From: Acidobacteriaceae bacterium
GTDB taxonomy: Bacteria; Acidobacteriota; Terriglobia; Terriglobales; Acidobacteriaceae
Direction of reading: 5' to 3'
NCBI GenBank assembly: GCA_025355505.1
Contig: JANXZM010000077.1
Span: 1 to 64,000, forward strand
DNA length: 64,000 bases
Positions within the stretch are counted from its first letter, which is position 1, and every line of letters starts with the position of its first letter. Below are positions 3,265 to 41,608 of the stretch, in pieces. The position numbers were made by a program, and so were the translations under genes. The notes beneath the pieces were generated by a model, which saw only the letters and a program-made list of their open reading frames with translations, was not told the origin of the DNA and did not search any database.

Positions 3265-3584
3265 GGATTTGCCTTTCGCGGTCCGCGCGGGCGTCGGACA
3301 CGCTGCGGCGGTTTCAACCTGTGCAATAGCGCGATTGGATCAATTGTGACCTCTGGTGCCAGCATCTCTATGCCTTGCAAATAGTCCAGCGCCTTGAGCG
3401 TTCGTAGGAGGGTCCCAACGGTAGAACCGCGGCCTGCTTCGAGATTGCGCAGTGCCTTTTCGGAAACACCCGCCTTCTCAGCAGTTGTGCGCTGGTCGAT
3501 GTTGCGCGAGAGGCGCAACCTGCGCACACGTTGGCCGAGAGCAACCTGCAATTCGCTGGAAGTGTTAAATATAAGTTCATTCAT
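3261..3584 (-). CDS. hipB: HipB-type helix-turn-helix antitoxin
   Basis: This 107-residue protein has an XRE/Cro-type helix-turn-helix at about residues 15-70, including GQRVRRLRLSRNIDQRTTAEKAGVSEKALRNLE split over the two recognition helices. An Arg/Pro-rich tail follows. It precedes hipA with a 4-base overlap, the usual antitoxin-first order. The family binds operator DNA as a dimer and represses its own operon together with HipA. The ATG lacks a Shine-Dalgarno sequence and has a TATAAT box 8 bases upstream, suggesting a leaderless mRNA. Confidence 0.9.
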   Translation of the reverse strand: MNELIFNTSSELQVALGQRVRRLRLSRNIDQRTTAEKAGVSEKALRNLEAGRGSTVGTLLRTLKALDYLQGIEMLAPEVTIDPIALLHRLKPPQRVRRPRGPRKANP

Positions 3585-3586
3585 AC

Positions 3587-3646
3587 GGTAAAATTATACC
3601 ATTTAACGACGATTATAATACTAAACAGCATATATTAACCATTTAA
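3587..3646 (-). promoter_or_regulatory. Putative hipBA promoter and operator
   Basis: On the minus strand TATAAT lies 8 bases before the hipB ATG, where a -10 box would place the transcription start at or next to the ATG. It is embedded in GGTA-N6-TACC (3587-3600), an inverted repeat. The string ACCATTTAA occurs twice, at 3598-3606 and 3638-3646. The 40-base spacing puts both copies on the same DNA face. The whole stretch is strongly AT-rich compared with its surroundings. The assignment as HipB operator is inferred. Confidence 0.5.
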
Positions 3647-4055
3647 TTGTATGTGTATTAAATAGATAGTATAGGCATAAATAATCCTATTAAAGCATTC
3701 GACTCGTTAGTAGAGGCGTATTTATACCGTTTATATACTTACGTTAAGCATTCACGAGAAATGTCCTTTAACACAGGAGATGGAAGAGGCACAAAACCTC
3801 GGGCTGGTTCTCGCCTATTTCGGTGGATTACCCGTCGGGAGGGCTTGCCGAGGGCAGCGTTGCTAAGGCCTTTGTCTTCTGGGGGATGTGGACTTGGGTC
3901 GATAATTGTTGTCGTTGATCCAATCGAGAATCTGCGATCTCAGGAAACGCACGTTCGACTGGAATGGAAGCTTAACTGGTAGCGGGCGCGCTCGGCGAGG
4001 GGCTGAAGTTTGCGTTGGGACGCGGCATTGGTCGCCGCAGATTTTGAGCGGGTTT
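3601..4055. other. AT-rich intergenic region between hipB and protease gene
   Basis: The first 160 bases are very AT-rich, with several TATAAT-like and TATTAA-like strings and another TACCGTTTA element near 3726. The remainder is average in composition. No coding frame is convincing. Confidence 0.5.
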
Positions 4056-5015
4056 TTACTGGACGACTGCGGCTGTTTCCAAAGCAGCTTGCTTAGCGGT
4101 TTCCAGCAGCGGACGCAGCGTGGCGGCGGTGATCCCCAGCGTGCCTCCCGAGAAGCCGTCAATGTAGGCGGAGTTGATGCCCACGACTTCGCCGCGCAGG
4201 TTCAGCACCGGTCCGCCGCTGCCTCCGCGAGCGGTGGGCGCGTCGTAGATCAGCTTGTCGCCGGTTACATCGCCGATGTGCCCGAACGTCGCGGAAGGCC
4301 TGATCAGCGACAGCGCGGCCAACTCGCCCGCGGTGTTGGCATCATCCGGATGCGAGGATAGGCGCTCATACACGATTGCGGGCGACTTTGCCACCATGCC
4401 CGTCACTCCCATGGGATAAGCCAGGACGCTCACCGATTCGCCTACATGCGGCAACGTTTGGGACAGAGTCAACGGGCGCAGATTCCTGGTGAAGGCGGTG
4501 GCTTCGAGGCGCAGCACGGCCAGATCTCCGTGGGTGGCCACGACCACAATTTCAAGTTTTACGGGTAGCGGCGAGCCTGGGAAATATGCCTCTAGCTCTT
4601 CCAGCACTGGCAACCCGCCCTGCCGCAATGCCACTGCGACGTCCCGGTCACCGTACCAGGGTTCAGCCACATGGCGATTGGTGGCCAAGAGGCCCGGCGC
4701 TACCACAAAGCCCGTCCCGGCCACGCGAGCGCGAAAACTGTGCACATTGCCGGACATGTGATAAATCCCGTAGATATAAGCCACCGACTCCCGCGCGTCG
4801 TCCACTGCCGCCGCCGAAAACGATTGCTCCCGCTCCAGATCCGCGACCTGGCGTGACAGTTGGTGAACCTGCTGCTCCAGTCCGATCGTCTCCGGGGGAG
4901 CGTAATAGTGCGCCATGACCAAGGCACCCACCAGCGCCAGCACGCCCAGCAGCCCCTGCACAAACCGCTGCCAGGTCTCGACCACTTCGATTTCTCCACG
5001 ATCGGAATTAAACAT
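4056..5015 (-). CDS. Membrane-anchored trypsin-like serine protease
   Basis: Chymotrypsin-fold protease of the S1C/HtrA-like type, 319 residues. It has one transmembrane segment (about 18-38) and then a short coiled coil rich in Gln/Glu (45-65). The protease domain holds the triad: His in NRHVAE (about 114), Asp in HGDLAVL (about 164) and Ser in ARGGSGGPV (about 266). There is no PDZ domain, unlike DegP/DegS. It is probably tethered to the inner membrane with the catalytic domain in the periplasm. Substrate is unknown. It stands alone, with no operon partner. Confidence 0.85.
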   Translation of the reverse strand: MFNSDRGEIEVVETWQRFVQGLLGVLALVGALVMAHYYAPPETIGLEQQVHQLSRQVADLEREQSFSAAAVDDARESVAYIYGIYHMSGNVHSFRARVAGTGFVVAPGLLATNRHVAEPWYGDRDVAVALRQGGLPVLEELEAYFPGSPLPVKLEIVVVATHGDLAVLRLEATAFTRNLRPLTLSQTLPHVGESVSVLAYPMGVTGMVAKSPAIVYERLSSHPDDANTAGELAALSLIRPSATFGHIGDVTGDKLIYDAPTARGGSGGPVLNLRGEVVGINSAYIDGFSGGTLGITAATLRPLLETAKQAALETAAVVQ

Positions 5016-5697: not shown

Positions 5698-6057
5698 CTA
5701 CACTGGCTCCAGTTCGCGCACCGTCCACTCGTTTTCGACATTGCCCGGGTTCAGGGTGGTGGCAGGTTCAAACAGGACGATCCAGCACTCTTCGTTTGCC
5801 GCGGGACGGTGCTCCACCCCGCGCGGCACCACGATAAACTCGCGCTCTTCGATCCACTCATGCCGGTCGCGAAAATCCATGCGGAAGCGGCCCTTCACCA
5901 CCGGAAACATTTCGTCTTCGTACTGGTGATGGTGAAATACAAACTCGCTGTTCAGCTTGACGAACTTGACGTGCTGTCCGTTGAGCTCGGCAGCGATACG
6001 CGGCTTGTAGTATTCGGTGATTTTGGCGAACTTCTCAGCGATGTTGACTTTGGACAT
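5698..6057 (-). CDS. Cupin-domain protein
   Basis: Small single-domain cupin. Motif 1 is EFVFHHHQYEDEMFPVVKG and motif 2 is VVPRGVEHRPAANEE, supplying His, Glu and His ligands for a metal ion. The start MSKVNIAEKF at 6057 is preferred, since the extension to a GTG at 6102 adds a stretch without cupin character. About 119 residues. Cupins of this size bind small metabolites or act as isomerases or dioxygenases. No specific reaction can be assigned. Confidence 0.8.
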   Translation of the reverse strand: MSKVNIAEKFAKITEYYKPRIAAELNGQHVKFVKLNSEFVFHHHQYEDEMFPVVKGRFRMDFRDRHEWIEEREFIVVPRGVEHRPAANEECWIVLFEPATTLNPGNVENEWTVRELEPV

Positions 6058-6285
6058 TGCAAGCTCGGCGGCGGTGTGCTGTTTAGGATTCGCAACAGCC
6101 ACGGAAGTCGCAAAAGAAGCGCTGGCGACGATGGGTTTGCTGCTGATCGCGGGATGGTTTTTGAAGAACTGATTCGTGAATACCTTTCGGCCGCAGTGAT
6201 GGTTGGACGGGCGAGGACGCCCGTCGCTCCATCGGCAAAAGCAAAAACCGCCAGCTCGCGCCGGCGGCTGATTGCTGACGGCTTC

Positions 6286-34584: not shown

Positions 34585-34965
34585 TTAGCGTGGTTTCTCC
34601 AGCGGGTAGCCCCGTTCGCGCCAATCGCGGATTCCGCCGTCCATGGAGATGACATTGGTGTATCCCATTTTTTGCAGGTTATCGGCTGCCAGCGCGGAGC
34701 GGAAGCCGCCGCCACAATAAAGTACAAGTTCGGTGTGCAGGTCGGGATACTTGCCCTCAATGTCTCGCTCGATGATGCCCCTGCCCAGATGGACGGCTCG
34801 TGGCAGGTGATCGGAGTCGAATTCGCGGTCTTCGCGGACGTCGACCAGAACAAATTTCTCGCCGCGATCAAGCCGGGCTTTGACTTCGTCAACATTAGTT
34901 TCGCGGACGCGCTGCTTGGCGTCTTCGACAATCTTCAGAAAGCGCGGTGGATGCTGATGAGCCAT
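34585..34965 (-). CDS. Rhodanese-domain protein
   Basis: A 126-residue single rhodanese domain. The active-site cysteine is in LVLYCGGGFRSALAADNL and the domain ends MDGGIRDWRERGYPL. It should transfer sulfane sulfur to a thiol acceptor in the cytoplasm. It starts MAHQHPPRFLKIVEDA, with no signal peptide. It is divergent from the SET-domain gene and 142 bases downstream of ccmF. Confidence 0.9.
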   Translation of the reverse strand: MAHQHPPRFLKIVEDAKQRVRETNVDEVKARLDRGEKFVLVDVREDREFDSDHLPRAVHLGRGIIERDIEGKYPDLHTELVLYCGGGFRSALAADNLQKMGYTNVISMDGGIRDWRERGYPLEKPR

Positions 34966-35126
34966 GGCCGCTGGTCTCCCACTGGTTGGTCTTCTTGTTT
35001 ACTCCCAAGAATGATAGCAGGCGGCCGGAGAATGTCTCCTGTTGCTCGATGCCGATCCCGTGGCGGGTGTGCGAAAGACCTCTGCTGCAGATAAAATCGA
35101 ATGACGCTTTATATCAATCGCGATCC

Positions 35127-35576
35127 ATGACGCTCATCATTCGCCAGTCTCGCATTCACTCCTACGGCTGCTACTCCACGCGGCCGATTCGCAAAAAGAC
35201 GTTGATCGTGGAATACGTGGGCGAGTACCTGACCTACGAACAGGCCGACGATCTTTACGACGACTATCCGAACACGTATCTGTTCGGACTGGATGGCGGC
35301 AAACGCATTATTGACGGCTACGGGGTGGCCGCCTTCGTCAATCATTCCTGCAAACCGAACTGCGAGACCGATCAGATTCGGGGCAAGATGTGGATCATTG
35401 CGCTGCGCGATATTGAGGCTGGGGAAGAATTGACATACGACTACAACCTCTTCGATGGCGAGGATGATGCGCCCTGTTTATGCGGGACAGGGCGCTGCCG
35501 GGGAAGTCTGTATTCGGCGACGCACCTGCGCAAGCTCGCCAAAAAGCGCGCTAAGGCGGCGGCGGCGGTTTCGTAA
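35127..35576 (+). CDS. SET-domain protein methyltransferase
   Basis: About 149 residues from the ATG at 35127. The SET domain contains GCYSTRPIRKKTLIVEYVGE, the NHSCKPNCE motif that forms the SAM knot and ELTYDYN, which contributes the catalytic Tyr. A post-SET cysteine cluster follows (CLCGTGRCRG). SET enzymes methylate protein lysines. Bacterial members are less common, and the substrate is unknown. A basic tail (KKRAKAAAAVS) ends the protein. Confidence 0.88.
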   Translation: MTLIIRQSRIHSYGCYSTRPIRKKTLIVEYVGEYLTYEQADDLYDDYPNTYLFGLDGGKRIIDGYGVAAFVNHSCKPNCETDQIRGKMWIIALRDIEAGEELTYDYNLFDGEDDAPCLCGTGRCRGSLYSATHLRKLAKKRAKAAAAVS

Positions 35577-37724: not shown

Positions 37725-37809
37725 AGACAGCTGGGCGTGCGCACCACCCCGGCTGTTCAAGAAACCTGCCTCGAGATATTCTTTTGCGTTACACTGCGAG
37801 CAAAACGGA

Positions 37810-38097
37810 ATGTCACAAATTAATCTGCCCGAGCCTCTGGAGAAAGACGGCTTCAATCCCAAAGCGAGGATTCCATTCGGCGTCACCACCGCTCACATAC
37901 ACGCGGCAATGCAGGATTTCATCGACTTTGCGACCGCGGTTGACACGCAGCTTTACGCCAAGGAAATGGCCAGCCTGGAAAATACAATGATGCAAGCGAA
38001 CTTCAGCAGCTTGGTTGGCGAAATCATGGGCGCGCGCATTCCCAAGCACTGCCCAACGGTGGTTAAGAACCTTTACCACAACGGGCACCCGGTATGA
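37810..38097 (+). CDS. Unknown 95 aa protein, first gene of DUF262 block
   Basis: It starts MSQINLPEPLEKDGFNPK at an ATG 86 bases after gatA. The rest is helical and mildly hydrophobic (TTAHIHAAMQDFIDFATAVD, ENTMMQANFSSLVGEI). I do not recognise the family. The next start codon overlaps its stop (ATGA), so it is co-translated with the nucleotidyltransferase-like protein. Base composition is less GC-rich than gatA. It may be a small partner or antitoxin-like subunit. That is inference. Confidence 0.6.
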   Translation: MSQINLPEPLEKDGFNPKARIPFGVTTAHIHAAMQDFIDFATAVDTQLYAKEMASLENTMMQANFSSLVGEIMGARIPKHCPTVVKNLYHNGHPV

Positions 38098-38678
38098 CCG
38101 CGAAAGAATTGTCCGCGTTAGCAAGCAGAGGCCAGATCGAGGAAATCATCGGACAGCTTTTCTCAGGGGTCCCGTCCGCTTTCAACGACCGACCCACCGA
38201 CTACCCGAAGTTCCTTGGTCAGATTGCGGGTGCATTGAAGTGTGATGTCGCAAATGTCGCCGTAGTGGGCAGTGGAAGATTTGGGTTCAGCCTCGCACCT
38301 CATAAGTTTGGCCGTCCGTTCAATGACCGCTCAGATATTGATGTCGTTATCGTTGACCCCAATTTCTTCGACTCGGCATGGCTGGAACTCATCCGTTACG
38401 ATTTCAAATCCCTCACATTCGATCGTGACGTCTCACAATCGCTTTGGGATCATCACAGAAACCATGTATTCTGGGGCTATCTCGAACCCTACAATCTCAA
38501 GACGGCGCTTTCGGTGTACCGGAGGGTCTGGTTTCCGATGGTCGCCAGTTTAGGATTTTTCCGCGCTGCGGCAGGAAGACCCGTCAAGGCACGCGTGTAC
38601 CGAACTTGGGAACATGCGAAGAGTTATCACAGGTTTGGCATTAGGCTAATTACGTCATCGAAGATGGGAGAGCGCTGA
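38094..38678 (+). CDS. Nucleotidyltransferase-like protein
   Basis: A 194-residue protein with a motif typical of minimal nucleotidyltransferase folds: GSGRFGFS near 59-66 and DID near 81-83 in the SDIDVVIVD strand. An all-alpha part follows, without a clear HEPN domain. The family is likely to act as a nucleotidyltransferase, possibly on RNA, nucleotide or protein, but the substrate is not assigned. Its stop TGA overlaps the ATG of the DUF262 gene, so it is the middle gene of three. Confidence 0.7.
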   Translation: MTAKELSALASRGQIEEIIGQLFSGVPSAFNDRPTDYPKFLGQIAGALKCDVANVAVVGSGRFGFSLAPHKFGRPFNDRSDIDVVIVDPNFFDSAWLELIRYDFKSLTFDRDVSQSLWDHHRNHVFWGYLEPYNLKTALSVYRRVWFPMVASLGFFRAAAGRPVKARVYRTWEHAKSYHRFGIRLITSSKMGER

Positions 38679-39760
38679 TGAAATTCGACGTAACGTCTTA
38701 CTCGTTGAGCTGGTTTAAAGATCGCTACAACGAGGAGACCCTCACTATCAAGCCGCCCTACCAGCGTCGACCTGTTTGGGGTTTGCGTCAGAAGGCGAAG
38801 CTGATCGAATCCGTTTTGCTAGAGCTGCCGATCCCAGAACTGTTCCTTGACGAAACCACCGACGATGAGGGCAAGACTCGATTTGCCATTATTGACGGTC
38901 AGCAGCGTACTCGAGCCGTGCTGCAGTTCTTGGGTCTGGATCGTGACCCACTGGAGCAGGAGTACAATGATTTCGAATTAGGCACCCTCGACAGTGATTC
39001 GCCTTACAAAGACAAAAACTTCAAAAACTTGAGCCCCGCCGAGCGTAAAACCTTCTTCAGCTACAAATTTAGTATACGGACACTATACAATCCGAGTGAC
39101 CTGGAAGTGCGTGACACCTTCAAGCGGATCAACCAATATCTCACCAAGCTTAACGATCAAGAACTCCGCAACGCGACCTATTCGGGTCCATTTGTCCGTC
39201 TCGTTGAAGCATTAGCGGACAACAAGTTTTGGACAGAGCAGGGCGTGTTCAGGACCTCACATATAAGACGGATGAAAGATGTCCAATATGTCAGCGAATT
39301 AGTTATCGGTGTCGCTTCCGGTCCTCAGGGAGGATCTACCAGTGTCATAGACGACTATTACAGCAACTTCGAGGACTATAAAGACGAGATTCCCAATGAA
39401 GAGGACATTAAGGAGCGTTATGAGAGCGCGATCGAAACGATAAAGGCAATTTTTCCAGAGTTGAAAAAGGCGGGCAGATTTAAGAACCTAGCCGATTTCT
39501 ACTCGCTGTTTGTGTCAATCGCCGCTTTGAACCGGGAGGGCATCGAATTTCCTAACAATGGAAAAGGCTTAACCAACCTCCGACAGGCTCTCGTGGGTTT
39601 TTCAGATGCGGTAGACAAACGGTTAAGTAACCCCAAGGCACAGATTAGTGACCCGGCAATACAATATGCGCGCGCCATCGAAAAGGGCGTTAACGACAAG
39701 AGCCGAAGGTCAGCACGACATAAAGCATTAGTCACCGTCTTGGAGAGGCACGGGGTTTAG
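38678..39760 (+). CDS. DUF262-family (ParB-fold) protein
   Basis: A 360-residue protein with an N-terminal DUF262 domain: PPYQRRPVW near 26-34 and IIDGQQRTRAV near 72-82, the ParB-like active-site signature known from GmrSD restriction enzymes. A C-terminal helical region has no HNH/DUF1524 nuclease motif, so it is unlike complete GmrSD. DUF262 proteins hydrolyse NTPs and often function in defence against phage. It ends 4 bases into the convergent methyltransferase gene. Confidence 0.8.
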   Translation: MKFDVTSYSLSWFKDRYNEETLTIKPPYQRRPVWGLRQKAKLIESVLLELPIPELFLDETTDDEGKTRFAIIDGQQRTRAVLQFLGLDRDPLEQEYNDFELGTLDSDSPYKDKNFKNLSPAERKTFFSYKFSIRTLYNPSDLEVRDTFKRINQYLTKLNDQELRNATYSGPFVRLVEALADNKFWTEQGVFRTSHIRRMKDVQYVSELVIGVASGPQGGSTSVIDDYYSNFEDYKDEIPNEEDIKERYESAIETIKAIFPELKKAGRFKNLADFYSLFVSIAALNREGIEFPNNGKGLTNLRQALVGFSDAVDKRLSNPKAQISDPAIQYARAIEKGVNDKSRRSARHKALVTVLERHGV

Positions 39761-40680
39761 ACACATACACCAGCATCGACACTGACCCGTGACAGGTGCT
39801 TGATCGCGGTTGCTGCGAGTTCAAAGTAATTCTGACATTTCTCAACACCGATACAACTCACGCCCAATGCCTCTGCAGCCGCCACCGTGGAGCCGGAACC
39901 CATAAACGGGTCGAGCACGGTGCCTTTCCCCAGCGGCAGCACGGCAAAAACCAAGTCGCGCAACAGTGCTTGGGGTTTCAGACTTGGGTGCGCCGCAAGT
40001 TTGCGTTCCTCTCGTGGCGTGCGCCCCCCTTTCACTAAATCTGAAAACGGCAACCCTTCCGGCAGCCGTCGCAAGCCGCCCGTTTCAAATTGGCGCAGGC
40101 AATCGCTCACCTTCATGCCGGCGAGCAGCGGTTTGCGCAGTATGCCCCATGGCTCATAGCAGCCGCGCGGCAAGGAGCACACGTCCGGAAATTCCTCCTC
40201 CGCATTCTTTGGCCGGTCGCCGCCGCGCAGCGTCTGCACCACGCGGATTAGCTGCCCGCGAAATTCCAGGCCGCCAGCCACAAGCGCGCTGTAGACCATT
40301 TGGCACATGAAGGAATTGCAAGCGATGAAAACGTGACCGCCCGGCCTAAGCACATGCGTGGCAACCTTGGCCCATTCGGTGAAGAACCGGCAAACCTGTG
40401 CGCGCTCTTTGGCGTTCAGCGCCGTAAATCGGGGAAGCGGCTGGCGCACGGAGCCATCGAAAGACGGTGGGATGCGCCAGATGCCGCCATTGCCGTTGGC
40501 CCGCTTTTCAAGCTGGTCGAACTCATACTCCTTCAAGCCATAGGGCGGGTCGGTGACAATCCCGTGGATTGAATTCTCCGGGGTACGCCCCATCCACTCT
40601 AAGCAATCGGCGTGGACGATGAGGGATTCGCCAACGGTCTTGTGCGCGTAATTAAGGGCAAACTTTGCGAGCGGAGGCAT
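39757..40680 (-). CDS. Site-specific DNA methyltransferase (N4/N6)
   Basis: A 307-residue amino-methyltransferase with motif IV DPPYGL near 43-48 and motif I DPFMGSGST near 255-263. This order (IV before I) places it in the beta class. It could modify adenine-N6 or cytosine-N4. No restriction endonuclease gene is next to it in the usual place, but the convergent DUF262 gene overlaps by 4 bases. The target site is unknown. Confidence 0.88.
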   Translation of the reverse strand: MPPLAKFALNYAHKTVGESLIVHADCLEWMGRTPENSIHGIVTDPPYGLKEYEFDQLEKRANGNGGIWRIPPSFDGSVRQPLPRFTALNAKERAQVCRFFTEWAKVATHVLRPGGHVFIACNSFMCQMVYSALVAGGLEFRGQLIRVVQTLRGGDRPKNAEEEFPDVCSLPRGCYEPWGILRKPLLAGMKVSDCLRQFETGGLRRLPEGLPFSDLVKGGRTPREERKLAAHPSLKPQALLRDLVFAVLPLGKGTVLDPFMGSGSTVAAAEALGVSCIGVEKCQNYFELAATAIKHLSRVSVDAGVCV

Positions 40681-40803
40681 CTCTATTTTGGCAAGTATAA
40701 CCCACCATCGGCGAGACTATAGCGTAACCCTGCACACGAATGGACGCTGCCGGGTGTCCCGCTCAAGCTCCGCTTGAGCGGGGTGTTCGCCGATCCTCTT
40801 AAC

Positions 40804-41427: not shown

Positions 41428-41508
41428 GTCATCCTGAGCGAAGCGAAGGACCTACGCATTCCTACGCTGCGAGCAAATGCGTAGGTCCTTCGCTTCGCTC
41501 AGGATGAC
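41428..41508. repeat. Perfect 33-bp inverted repeat
   Basis: Arms 41428-41460 and 41476-41508 are exact reverse complements (GTCATCCTGAGCGAAGCGAA...), separated by 15 bases. Folded as RNA it would form a very stable stem. A half-copy, CTCCGCTCAGGATGACAT, is at about 63220-63238. It lies between the FmdE-like gene and cysS. Confidence 0.9.
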
Positions 41509-41512
41509 ATTT

Positions 41513-41608
41513 TTTGAACTGCCACCTGTTTGAACTGCCACCTGTTTGAACTGCCATCTGTTTGAACTGCCATCTGTTTGAACTGCCATCTGTTTGAACT
41601 GCCACCTG
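41513..41608. repeat. Six-copy 16-base tandem repeat
   Basis: TTTGAACTGCCACCTG occurs six times head to tail. Copies 3, 4 and 5 have GCCATCTG. It starts 4 bases after the long inverted repeat. It is too short in unit and has no spacers, so it is not a CRISPR. Confidence 0.9.

Follow-up and report, generated by a model that had tools for sequence, protein, structure and literature searches.

A predicted type II restriction-modification locus of an Acidobacteriaceae bacterium in which a nucleotidyltransferase-like and a DUF262 gene occupy the place of the restriction enzyme's catalytic half

What is the role of a short gene at the head of a compact cluster that also encodes a nucleotidyltransferase-like protein, a DUF262 protein and a DNA methyltransferase? 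The question is raised by a block of four open reading frames (ORFs) in a 64,000-nucleotide stretch of DNA from an Acidobacteriaceae bacterium (hereafter the window; GenBank assembly GCA_025355505.1, contig JANXZM010000077.1, positions 1 to 64,000 of the forward strand), the genome of which amounts to 4.16 Mb in 119 contigs. The block consists of p95, a protein of 95 residues, NT194 (the nucleotidyltransferase-like protein, NT), DUF262 and the methyltransferase (MT), and our analysis confirmed the ORF positions and overlaps given in the first-pass annotation of the window: four bases (ATGA) between p95 and NT, one base between NT and DUF262, and four bases between the stop-codon ends of DUF262 and MT. 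That annotation had proposed a modification-dependent defence system with no nuclease of a known kind, of which p95 would be a further part. Comparison with related loci makes it almost certain that the block is a type II restriction-modification (R-M) locus with the NT-DUF262 pair occupying the position that the catalytic half of the restriction endonuclease (RE) takes in relatives, and we infer that the pair may have replaced the RE in function as well.

p95 had zero matches in Pfam and PADLOC and none significant in NCBIfam. When aligned with eight RE relatives, however, it was found to be 47-55% identical to the N-termini of the nearest four (L043, L044, L045 and L047; BLASTP E 1e-32 to 2e-24) and 19-30% identical to the other four. 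Identity rose to 80% over 94 shared residues with the intact RE of a sister locus, L056, and to 79% with the RE of a viral contig, L103. The window protein terminates in HNGHP followed by V and the stop codon, at a position where all eight aligned relatives have PD (NGHPD in six); beyond PD, members of this family of ~200 residues carry an (E)xK motif (EGIEIKAS and similar). p95 thus stops just before the catalytic Asp and is missing the PD...(D/E)XK core, and it is the sole RE match in the window genome. By alignment, then, p95 is the N-terminal half of a truncated type II PD-(D/E)XK restriction enzyme, and its candidacy as a new defence subunit was rejected. The finding accounts for the 95-residue gene and cautions against mistaking a truncated enzyme for a novel defence protein. 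As to the kind of enzyme, PADLOC REase_II model PDLC03564 weakly matched four of seven proteins of the RE family (E 5e-7 to 9e-4), and an alignment of the family found no relatives among PDB sequences. An AlphaFold2 model of the L056 RE (predicted local distance difference test score, pLDDT, 81) returned EcoRV in all of its 14 top Foldseek matches, with a best E of 6.4e-3, a probability of 0.94, template modelling (TM) scores of 0.32-0.37 and no E below 0.001; on the strength of this model the RE family is probably EcoRV-like.

We regard it as highly improbable that the four genes make up a modification-dependent system of four parts with p95 as a functional subunit. The p95 frame is intact, overlaps the NT start and appears constrained relative to L056 (synonymous divergence, dS, 0.68; ratio of nonsynonymous to synonymous divergence, dN/dS, 0.19), as that proposal would have it, but this constraint could predate the truncation, and none of the other NT-DUF262 loci seen shows NT accompanied by a truncated RE with an open frame: L066 has only a frameshifted remnant and L010, L011, L012, L060 and L061 have none. 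Moreover, the MT makes a modification and does not read one, and nothing points to a type IV system. Relative to L103, the window branch has accumulated 11 amino-acid changes in p95 vs 5 for L056, and 9 vs 5 synonymous ones; as a test of selection on p95 this branch comparison was discarded, functional and dead p95 not being told apart by it.

The methyltransferase assignment of the first-pass annotation held up (Pfam PF01555, E 4.7e-21; PADLOC MTase_II PDLC03215, E 4.7e-90). The window MT is 89% identical to that of L056, where an intact RE adjoins it, and 84% identical to that of L103. An MT profile matched CcrM, DpnA and MboIIA in the PDB (best E 2.5e-15), matches which do not settle the target base. 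An MT profile (E 1e-30) detected the gene in 20 of 396 genomes sampled from the phylum, and in 15 of these 20 it lay beside an RE gene or its remains, in stretches lacking both NT and DUF262. Searching viral contigs with the RE yielded 12 loci (L103-L114, with L111 and L112, which have identical gene lists, each counted), in which the MT was adjacent in 12/12 and convergent in 11/12, and the stretches fetched contained no NT or DUF262. Since the MT adjoins the RE in all 12 viral loci, RE and MT appear to form a type II R-M pair, viral contigs included, and the window MT is, judging from its sequence, the partner of the truncated RE. Two earlier expectations are modified by these results. The R-M family does include a nuclease of a known kind, which has been lost in the window, and a distribution of the MT independent of the other genes, named beforehand as speaking against a single system, was found in part, the MT occurring mostly (15/20 genomes) without NT-DUF262. 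The RE-MT pair of L103-L114 looks like regular phage or prophage cargo. Among the MT genes, L044 (6755-7678 and 9746-10690) has a broken copy with several frames and stops upstream of the intact one, and the MTs of L048, L049, L051, L052, L053 and L058 carry an N-terminal extension of ~80 residues that looks winged-helix-like by eye (PGxVRDAI...SSIRSYLxLN); in L063 this extension is a separate ORF of 73 residues (5963-6184) without an NCBIfam match.

Comparison with L056 and L103 suggested how the window locus came about. L056, from an Acidobacteriaceae metagenome-assembled genome, comprises DUF262, an intact RE and a convergent MT; its contig begins inside DUF262, placing the NT region beyond the contig. 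L103 has the same RE and MT without NT-DUF262. At position 38092 the window reads CACCCGG/TATGACC and L056 CACCCGG/ATGTTC. Whereas p95 and the MT body are close to L056 (93% identity for the MT body; dS 0.52, proportion of synonymous differences, pS, 0.38 and dN/dS 0.07 over MT codons 1-270), DUF262 is 50% identical with saturated synonymous sites (pS 0.82), and the 37-codon MT tail is 53% identical and likewise saturated (pS 0.82). Of 30 positions compared within this tail, 24 are the same in L056 and L103, and the window shares 16 with either. Because p95 and the MT body are close to L056 and DUF262 and the MT tail are saturated, the simplest account of these sequences would be the import of a single segment reaching from the RE catalytic codon (38092) to ~39870. 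An existing R-M locus has thus probably received NT-DUF262, along with roughly the final 37 codons of the MT, by recombination, and we think it very probable that the catalytic half of the RE was replaced in this way. On the tree, the DUF262s of the window and of L056 are sisters (support 98/96; bootstrap not settled), which makes a related locus the probable donor; an unrelated donor was considered and is not supported. A chimeric assembly at the junctions is unlikely because both junctions are in frame and the ATGA overlap is present.

A truncated RE also invites the explanation that the whole locus is decaying, with a dead RE, inert imported genes and an orphan MT. In agreement with this, the window branch has more amino-acid changes than that of L056 not only in p95 but also in the MT body (11 vs 4 relative to L103), and L055 exemplifies such a locus reduced to fragments. 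Yet the NT, DUF262 and MT frames are open, at full or nearly full length and with their motifs kept, the dN/dS ratios of p95 and the MT body are low, and frames and overlaps have been preserved at both junctions, making decay an improbable account.

We next turn to the pair itself. NT was searched for in four sets of 396, 294, 396 and 395 genomes, of which 8, 3, 3 and 5, respectively, were positive (19 in total). The first search used the single protein at E 1e-3 and the other three A7 at E 1e-6; the centre genomes of these last three were always among the genomes searched, and G397, G398, G401, G402 and G404 were already known from a scan for DUF262. A DUF262-type NT was carried by 13 of the 19 genomes, and in 13/13 DUF262 was the next gene; the MT was found in the same gene cluster in 8/13 and was absent beside the pair in 5/13. 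Excluding the five genomes known beforehand, DUF262 was present in 8/8 and the MT in 4/8. Pairwise identities of NT and DUF262 were correlated (r 0.77 over 10 triads, r 0.79 over 17 pairs; Mantel p <0.001), the correlations with the MT being weaker (0.41, p 0.022 for NT; 0.48, p 0.014 for DUF262). The co-occurrence check proposed in the first-pass annotation thus showed NT and DUF262 to form one unit, and NT-DUF262 is, to judge from these sequence comparisons, a true module of two genes.

The DUF262 scan of genome contigs returned 14 loci of varied composition: NT, DUF262, RE and MT together (L057, L058, L063); DUF262, RE and MT (L056); NT, DUF262 and MT without RE (L059, identical to L011; L060; L061; L062, identical to L012); NT, DUF262, a frameshifted RE remnant and MT (L066); NT and DUF262 alone (L064, L065, L067); and a distant DUF262 without NT (L068, L069). 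L068 and L069 were left out of the association counts, and L059 and L062 were counted once with L011 and L012. NT-DUF262 together with the MT is likewise seen in L010, L011 and L012. The combination with the MT thus recurs in different orders and in several phyla among the loci compared, and as gene order and strand vary from locus to locus, the association would have arisen repeatedly or been reshuffled. In the phylum sample, a DUF262-type NT was found in 4/396 genomes and 4/4 of these also have the MT; this joint occurrence (hypergeometric 5e-6, adjacency not yet counted) indicates that the arrangement exceeds chance.

Outside the phylum, the pair was found without MT on a 6.2-kb Cronobacter plasmid (L018) and in E. 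coli strain 1500 (L089, positions 3286-4880), where its neighbours in a P2-like prophage are gpA (replication endonuclease) on one side and the portal gene on the other, a site that the available excerpts of PMC9122126 describe as a hotspot of anti-phage systems. The E. coli and Cronobacter NTs are 55% identical. The pair is rare, occurring in 1 of 5,426 E. coli genomes at the sensitivity of blastn, and two plasmid records held any relative of the window NT. One viral contig with NT and DUF262 and no MT (L102) was recovered using A9. No close NT relatives were found in phage records and viral contigs for the window NT, the E. coli NT or alignment A10, nor in phage records for the Cronobacter NT, and DUF262 alignment A6 gave one distant match in viral contigs, L070. 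In line with the first-pass annotation, which did not recognise a named system, NT is without a model in PADLOC, Pfam and NCBIfam; a description of the pair was not found in the excerpts of the open-licence papers searched, and neither was its placing inside the RE gene of a type II R-M locus. NT-DUF262 would thus represent an undescribed two-gene module, one copy of which resides in an E. coli P2-like prophage. In L099 (6931-12006) the pair is squeezed in, with slight overlaps, between genes that by eye read as argD and argF/argG; these surroundings look like an arginine biosynthesis operon.

Such a distribution raises the alternative of a self-contained NT-DUF262 cassette, anti-phage or toxin-antitoxin-like, that often just neighbours R-M genes or adds a second line of defence, the MT not serving as its self mark and the RE loss being incidental. 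The pair stands without MT in L064, L065, L067, L074, L075 (cut by the contig end), L098, L099, L102, the Cronobacter plasmid and the E. coli prophage, and in L064, L065 and L067 the MT family is absent from the whole genomes; precedents for such guests are RloF in type I loci (PMC4619093), TgvAB in a type I cluster (PMC12409362) and PrrC (PMC3710099), as far as the excerpts of these sources go. Set against this, MT-linked DUF262s cluster on the tree, with 2 label changes vs a shuffled mean of 5.7 (0/500 shuffles as low; 3/15 branches of this tree well supported, bootstrap not settled), the MT is retained by five triads in assemblies that show no RE, and in L012, L060 and L061 the DUF262 stop overlaps the MT start by four bases, which would be unexpected of loose neighbours. 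On balance we hold the self-contained cassette to be fairly unlikely.

What the two proteins might do was examined from their families and models. DUF262 matched Pfam PF03235 (GmrSD_N, E 3.5e-21), bearing out the family named at first pass; its best PADLOC match was NsnA (E 3.1e-43, residues 6-355 of 360), its DUF262 domain also matched PDLC03418 (E 3e-11), which PADLOC lists as a type II restriction enzyme, and a further match was phrog_2598 (E 1e-41). The DGQQR motif was present in 18/18 DUF262 sequences, and the C-terminus of the window protein is a few residues shorter than that of most relatives. Pfam rows of the four window proteins, taken up to E 1, did not include DUF1524, and the DUF262 alignment found no relatives among PDB sequences. 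A HEPN motif (R-x4-H near the C-terminus) was rejected as a general feature, its H being present in only 12/18 sequences. In L067 (4237-5993), not far from the NT-DUF262 pair, another gene for a DUF262 protein overlaps a HEPN gene of the MAE_28990 type (PF18737, E 2e-42), representing a different two-gene DUF262 module in the same stretch.

NT194 has no family in Pfam or PADLOC, a single NCBIfam row (E 0.094) and a match to phrog_32008, of unknown function (E 1.6e-18); its alignment found no relatives among PDB sequences. In the nucleotidyltransferase-like motif seen at first pass, which reads GSG...SDID in the window protein, G59, S60, D81 and D83 (GS...SDxD) proved invariant in 17/17 sequences (the window and 16 relatives). 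A structure model of NT194 (pLDDT 85) gave a best Foldseek E of 1.2 (TUT4), followed by cGAS and CdnD, with none below 0.001, and VIA-align placed it at Z 2-3.6 to CutA, AadA, poly(A) polymerases and cGAS. The invariant residues and these weak structural matches suggest that NT194 is a divergent nucleotidyltransferase-like protein, probably of the Pol-beta type. A second NT subfamily (6 of the 19 NT genomes; ORFs of 179-255 residues) has no DUF262 in the stretch fetched. In 5/5 neighbours scanned (L013, L016, L017, L100 and L101), a small free-standing peptidoglycan transglycosylase gene (PF00912, E 7e-36 to 1e-22) immediately precedes the NT gene of this subfamily. In L013 this pair is flanked by hsdM, which carries a PIN domain, and by an hsdS-like gene, both belonging to a type I R-M locus, and in L017 it is on a plasmid, near DUF4365, phospholipase D-like and TIR genes. 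NT-transglycosylase is a possible undescribed defence or toxin-antitoxin pair. In L014 (5661-9403) the NT of this subfamily lies between two copies of an N-terminal stretch resembling uvrB (named by eye; TEDMAFRLGIDYQPRGD), a gene which looks partly duplicated around it.

Does the pair, then, stand in for the lost RE? Among MT loci, the RE was intact in 4 of 11 with NT-DUF262 (L056, where NT lies off the contig, included) vs 12 of 15 without (Fisher p 0.043), and in the phylum sample only, in 0/4 vs 12/15 (p 0.009). The other seven NT-DUF262 loci divide into five with no RE anywhere in the assembly (L010, L011, L012, L060 and L061; one of the assemblies being 65% complete) and two with an RE fragment (the window and L066). 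L055 (G131) was dropped from the comparison, its NT, DUF262 and MT all being fragments and its RE match lying on another contig, as was the second, broken MT copy of L044 before counting. We incline, by a modest measure, to the reading that NT-DUF262 is a nucleoside triphosphate (NTP)-dependent anti-phage module able to replace the endonuclease as the effector arm of an R-M locus.

Several observations weigh against this reading. The RE is broken in 3 of the 15 loci lacking NT-DUF262 (L049, L050 and L052), and replacement is not the rule, because L056, L057, L058 and L063 keep both RE and DUF262 intact. The loci compared are related and were gathered in two ways, so that the p values are indicative only and RE loss with NT-DUF262 is a tendency rather than proof. 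Since 5 of 13 genomes have the pair with no MT beside it (the whole genome having been checked for G402 among these five, plus G403 and G405 outside that count), NT-DUF262 does not need the MT. Pfam, PADLOC and NCBIfam revealed no recognisable nuclease domain in either NT or DUF262. As for NT194, its Foldseek list also holds many lactate/malate dehydrogenases, and two unrelated chains (BolA-like, Z 5.0; a ribosomal protein, 3.7) outscored the Pol-beta rows in VIA-align. The protein may even be inactive, because a third catalytic carboxylate was not recognised: only D81 and D83 are acidic in 17/17, although a position-shifted acid is possible, and D93, which sits on a helix, is D in 14/17 sequences, E in one, N in one and A in one. 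Finally, given that the window DUF262 groups with that of L056 as its sister, there is a small chance that DUF262 is a fast-evolving resident gene and was not imported.

Under the replacement reading, NT-DUF262 would take over the restricting role and the MT would provide the self mark. DUF262 may bind or hydrolyse NTP via DGQQR and serve as the switch or the executing part; NT, first in the operon, might nucleotidylate or otherwise restrain DUF262 and release it upon infection or on encountering unmethylated DNA, whereupon the freed DUF262 would act. p95 could be an inert leader that keeps the old upstream region of the RE (its likeness to L056 there having been judged by eye only) and couples translation to NT. 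The parts of this scheme differ in strength. An anti-phage function of NT-DUF262 appears likely, whereas the chances that the MT is used as its self mark are evenly balanced. Because the NT family pairs both with DUF262 and with an unrelated transglycosylase, NT could be the constant controller and its partner the effector, and we find a controller about as plausible as a toxin. Possible, if somewhat doubtful, is the stricter version whereby an R-M system had its endonuclease displaced by an NT-DUF262 pair lacking a recognised nuclease, with a nucleotide-based or abortive response to unmarked DNA in place of site-specific cutting; the associated notion that the window catches this displacement, with the RE cut at its catalytic residue, is put forward equally tentatively. 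If NT-DUF262 restricts unmethylated DNA, the mark of a type II MT would be readable without a site-specific nuclease, and the definition of restriction would widen. The locus illustrates how an R-M system may swap its effector while keeping its methyltransferase.

How does the block compare with known systems? With type II R-M loci made of an EcoRV-like RE and a convergent beta-class MT it shares the MT, the N-terminal half of the RE, the convergent layout and a 4-base stop-codon overlap, as in L044 and L048; it differs in that the RE catalytic half is replaced by NT-DUF262 and the MT tail exchanged. In HEPN-MNT (type VII) toxin-antitoxin systems, a GS-x(n)-DxD nucleotidyltransferase gene is coupled to an effector gene; the window NT is likewise a GS...DxD gene beside a putative effector gene, but the partner is DUF262 and not HEPN. 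Nsn, which we take to stand for Menshen, is represented in PADLOC, presumably by models of other Nsn proteins as well; no Nsn row was returned for p95 or NT, and for MT none among the best 25 of 55 matches.

Within GmrSD, BrxU and SspE, DUF262 binds or hydrolyses NTP via DGQQR and goes with a DUF1524 nuclease, while Menshen, Dazbog and PD-T4-2 have DUF262 without DUF1524 and the Menshen partner has a predicted OLD nuclease, according to the excerpts available of PMC10952713. The window shares with the former the DUF262 domain and its NTP-binding motif, but has no DUF1524 match, a separate NT gene and a methyltransferase instead of modification-dependent cleavage. With the latter it shares a DUF262 without DUF1524 and the match to NsnA, but its NT is without a PADLOC match and the block holds no OLD-type nuclease, no OLD or ATPase families being among the Pfam rows of its four proteins. 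Like RloF and TgvAB in type I R-M loci, it links a DUF262 module to R-M, with the differences that the R-M system is of type II, the partner NT-like and the module located inside the restriction enzyme gene. A plan of small regulator or effector, ParB-like protein and DNA methylase is common to the window and to the operon of the MAE_28990 HEPN gene with a ParB nuclease and a DNA methylase, as outlined in the excerpts available of PMC3710099; the window has NT instead of HEPN, its R-M family is identified and an RE replacement is seen.

The coordinates of the block and of related features are collected in Table 1. gatA and the FmdE-like gene, which flank the block, carry the names given to them at first pass by reading alone. 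The FmdE-like gene is present in 23 relatives of the family, 11 of which were inspected; gatA lay within its 1.5-kb flank in 8 of the 11. In four relatives (L079, L081, L082 and L085) the aligned gatA and FmdE-like ends are ~10-100 bases apart, and because these ends nearly touch, the block is taken to be an insertion. Transposon insertion at this site was considered and dropped, direct repeats at the block edges examined being at most 7 bases long and inverted ones at most 8. A sigma-70 promoter scan gave no score above shuffles.

Table 1. Positions of the block, its junctions and segments in the window, and of the NT-transglycosylase pairs in their own stretches
Feature	Position	Strand	Remark
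p95 ORF, 95 aa	37810..38097	+	RE N-terminal half
NT194 ORF, 194 aa	38094..38678	+	nucleotidyltransferase-like
DUF262 ORF, 360 aa	38678..39760	+	GmrS-like NTPase domain protein
MT ORF, 307 aa	39757..40680	-	beta-class DNA methyltransferase, convergent
Whole insert between gatA and FmdE-like gene	37725..40803	.	from gene-end spacing in relatives
5' junction	38092..38097	+	RE frame enters GTATGA; NT ATG overlaps p95 stop TGA
MT 3' tail, ~last 37 codons	39757..39870	-	history apart from MT body; second breakpoint probably close to 39870
Probable imported segment (NT, DUF262, MT tail), ~1.78 kb	38092..39870	.	from divergence vs L056
NT-transglycosylase pair, L013	7274-8742		PF00912
NT-transglycosylase pair, L016	4105-5407		PF00912
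NT-transglycosylase pair, L017	5349-6603		PF00912
NT-transglycosylase pair, L100	6573-7884		PF00912
NT-transglycosylase pair, L101	7644-8819		PF00912

Elsewhere in the window, a 16-base tandem repeat (TTTGAACTGCCACCTG) is present in six copies with a 97% match at 41513-41608, adjoined by a long palindrome at ~41430-41510 with arms, recognised by eye, of ATGCGTAGGTCCTTCGCTTCGCTCAGGATG. Upstream of the block, an ORF of 209 residues (34947-35576) looks SET-domain-like by eye (EYVGEYLT...FVNHSCKPNC...YDYNLF...CLCGTGRCRG), which is unusual for a bacterium.

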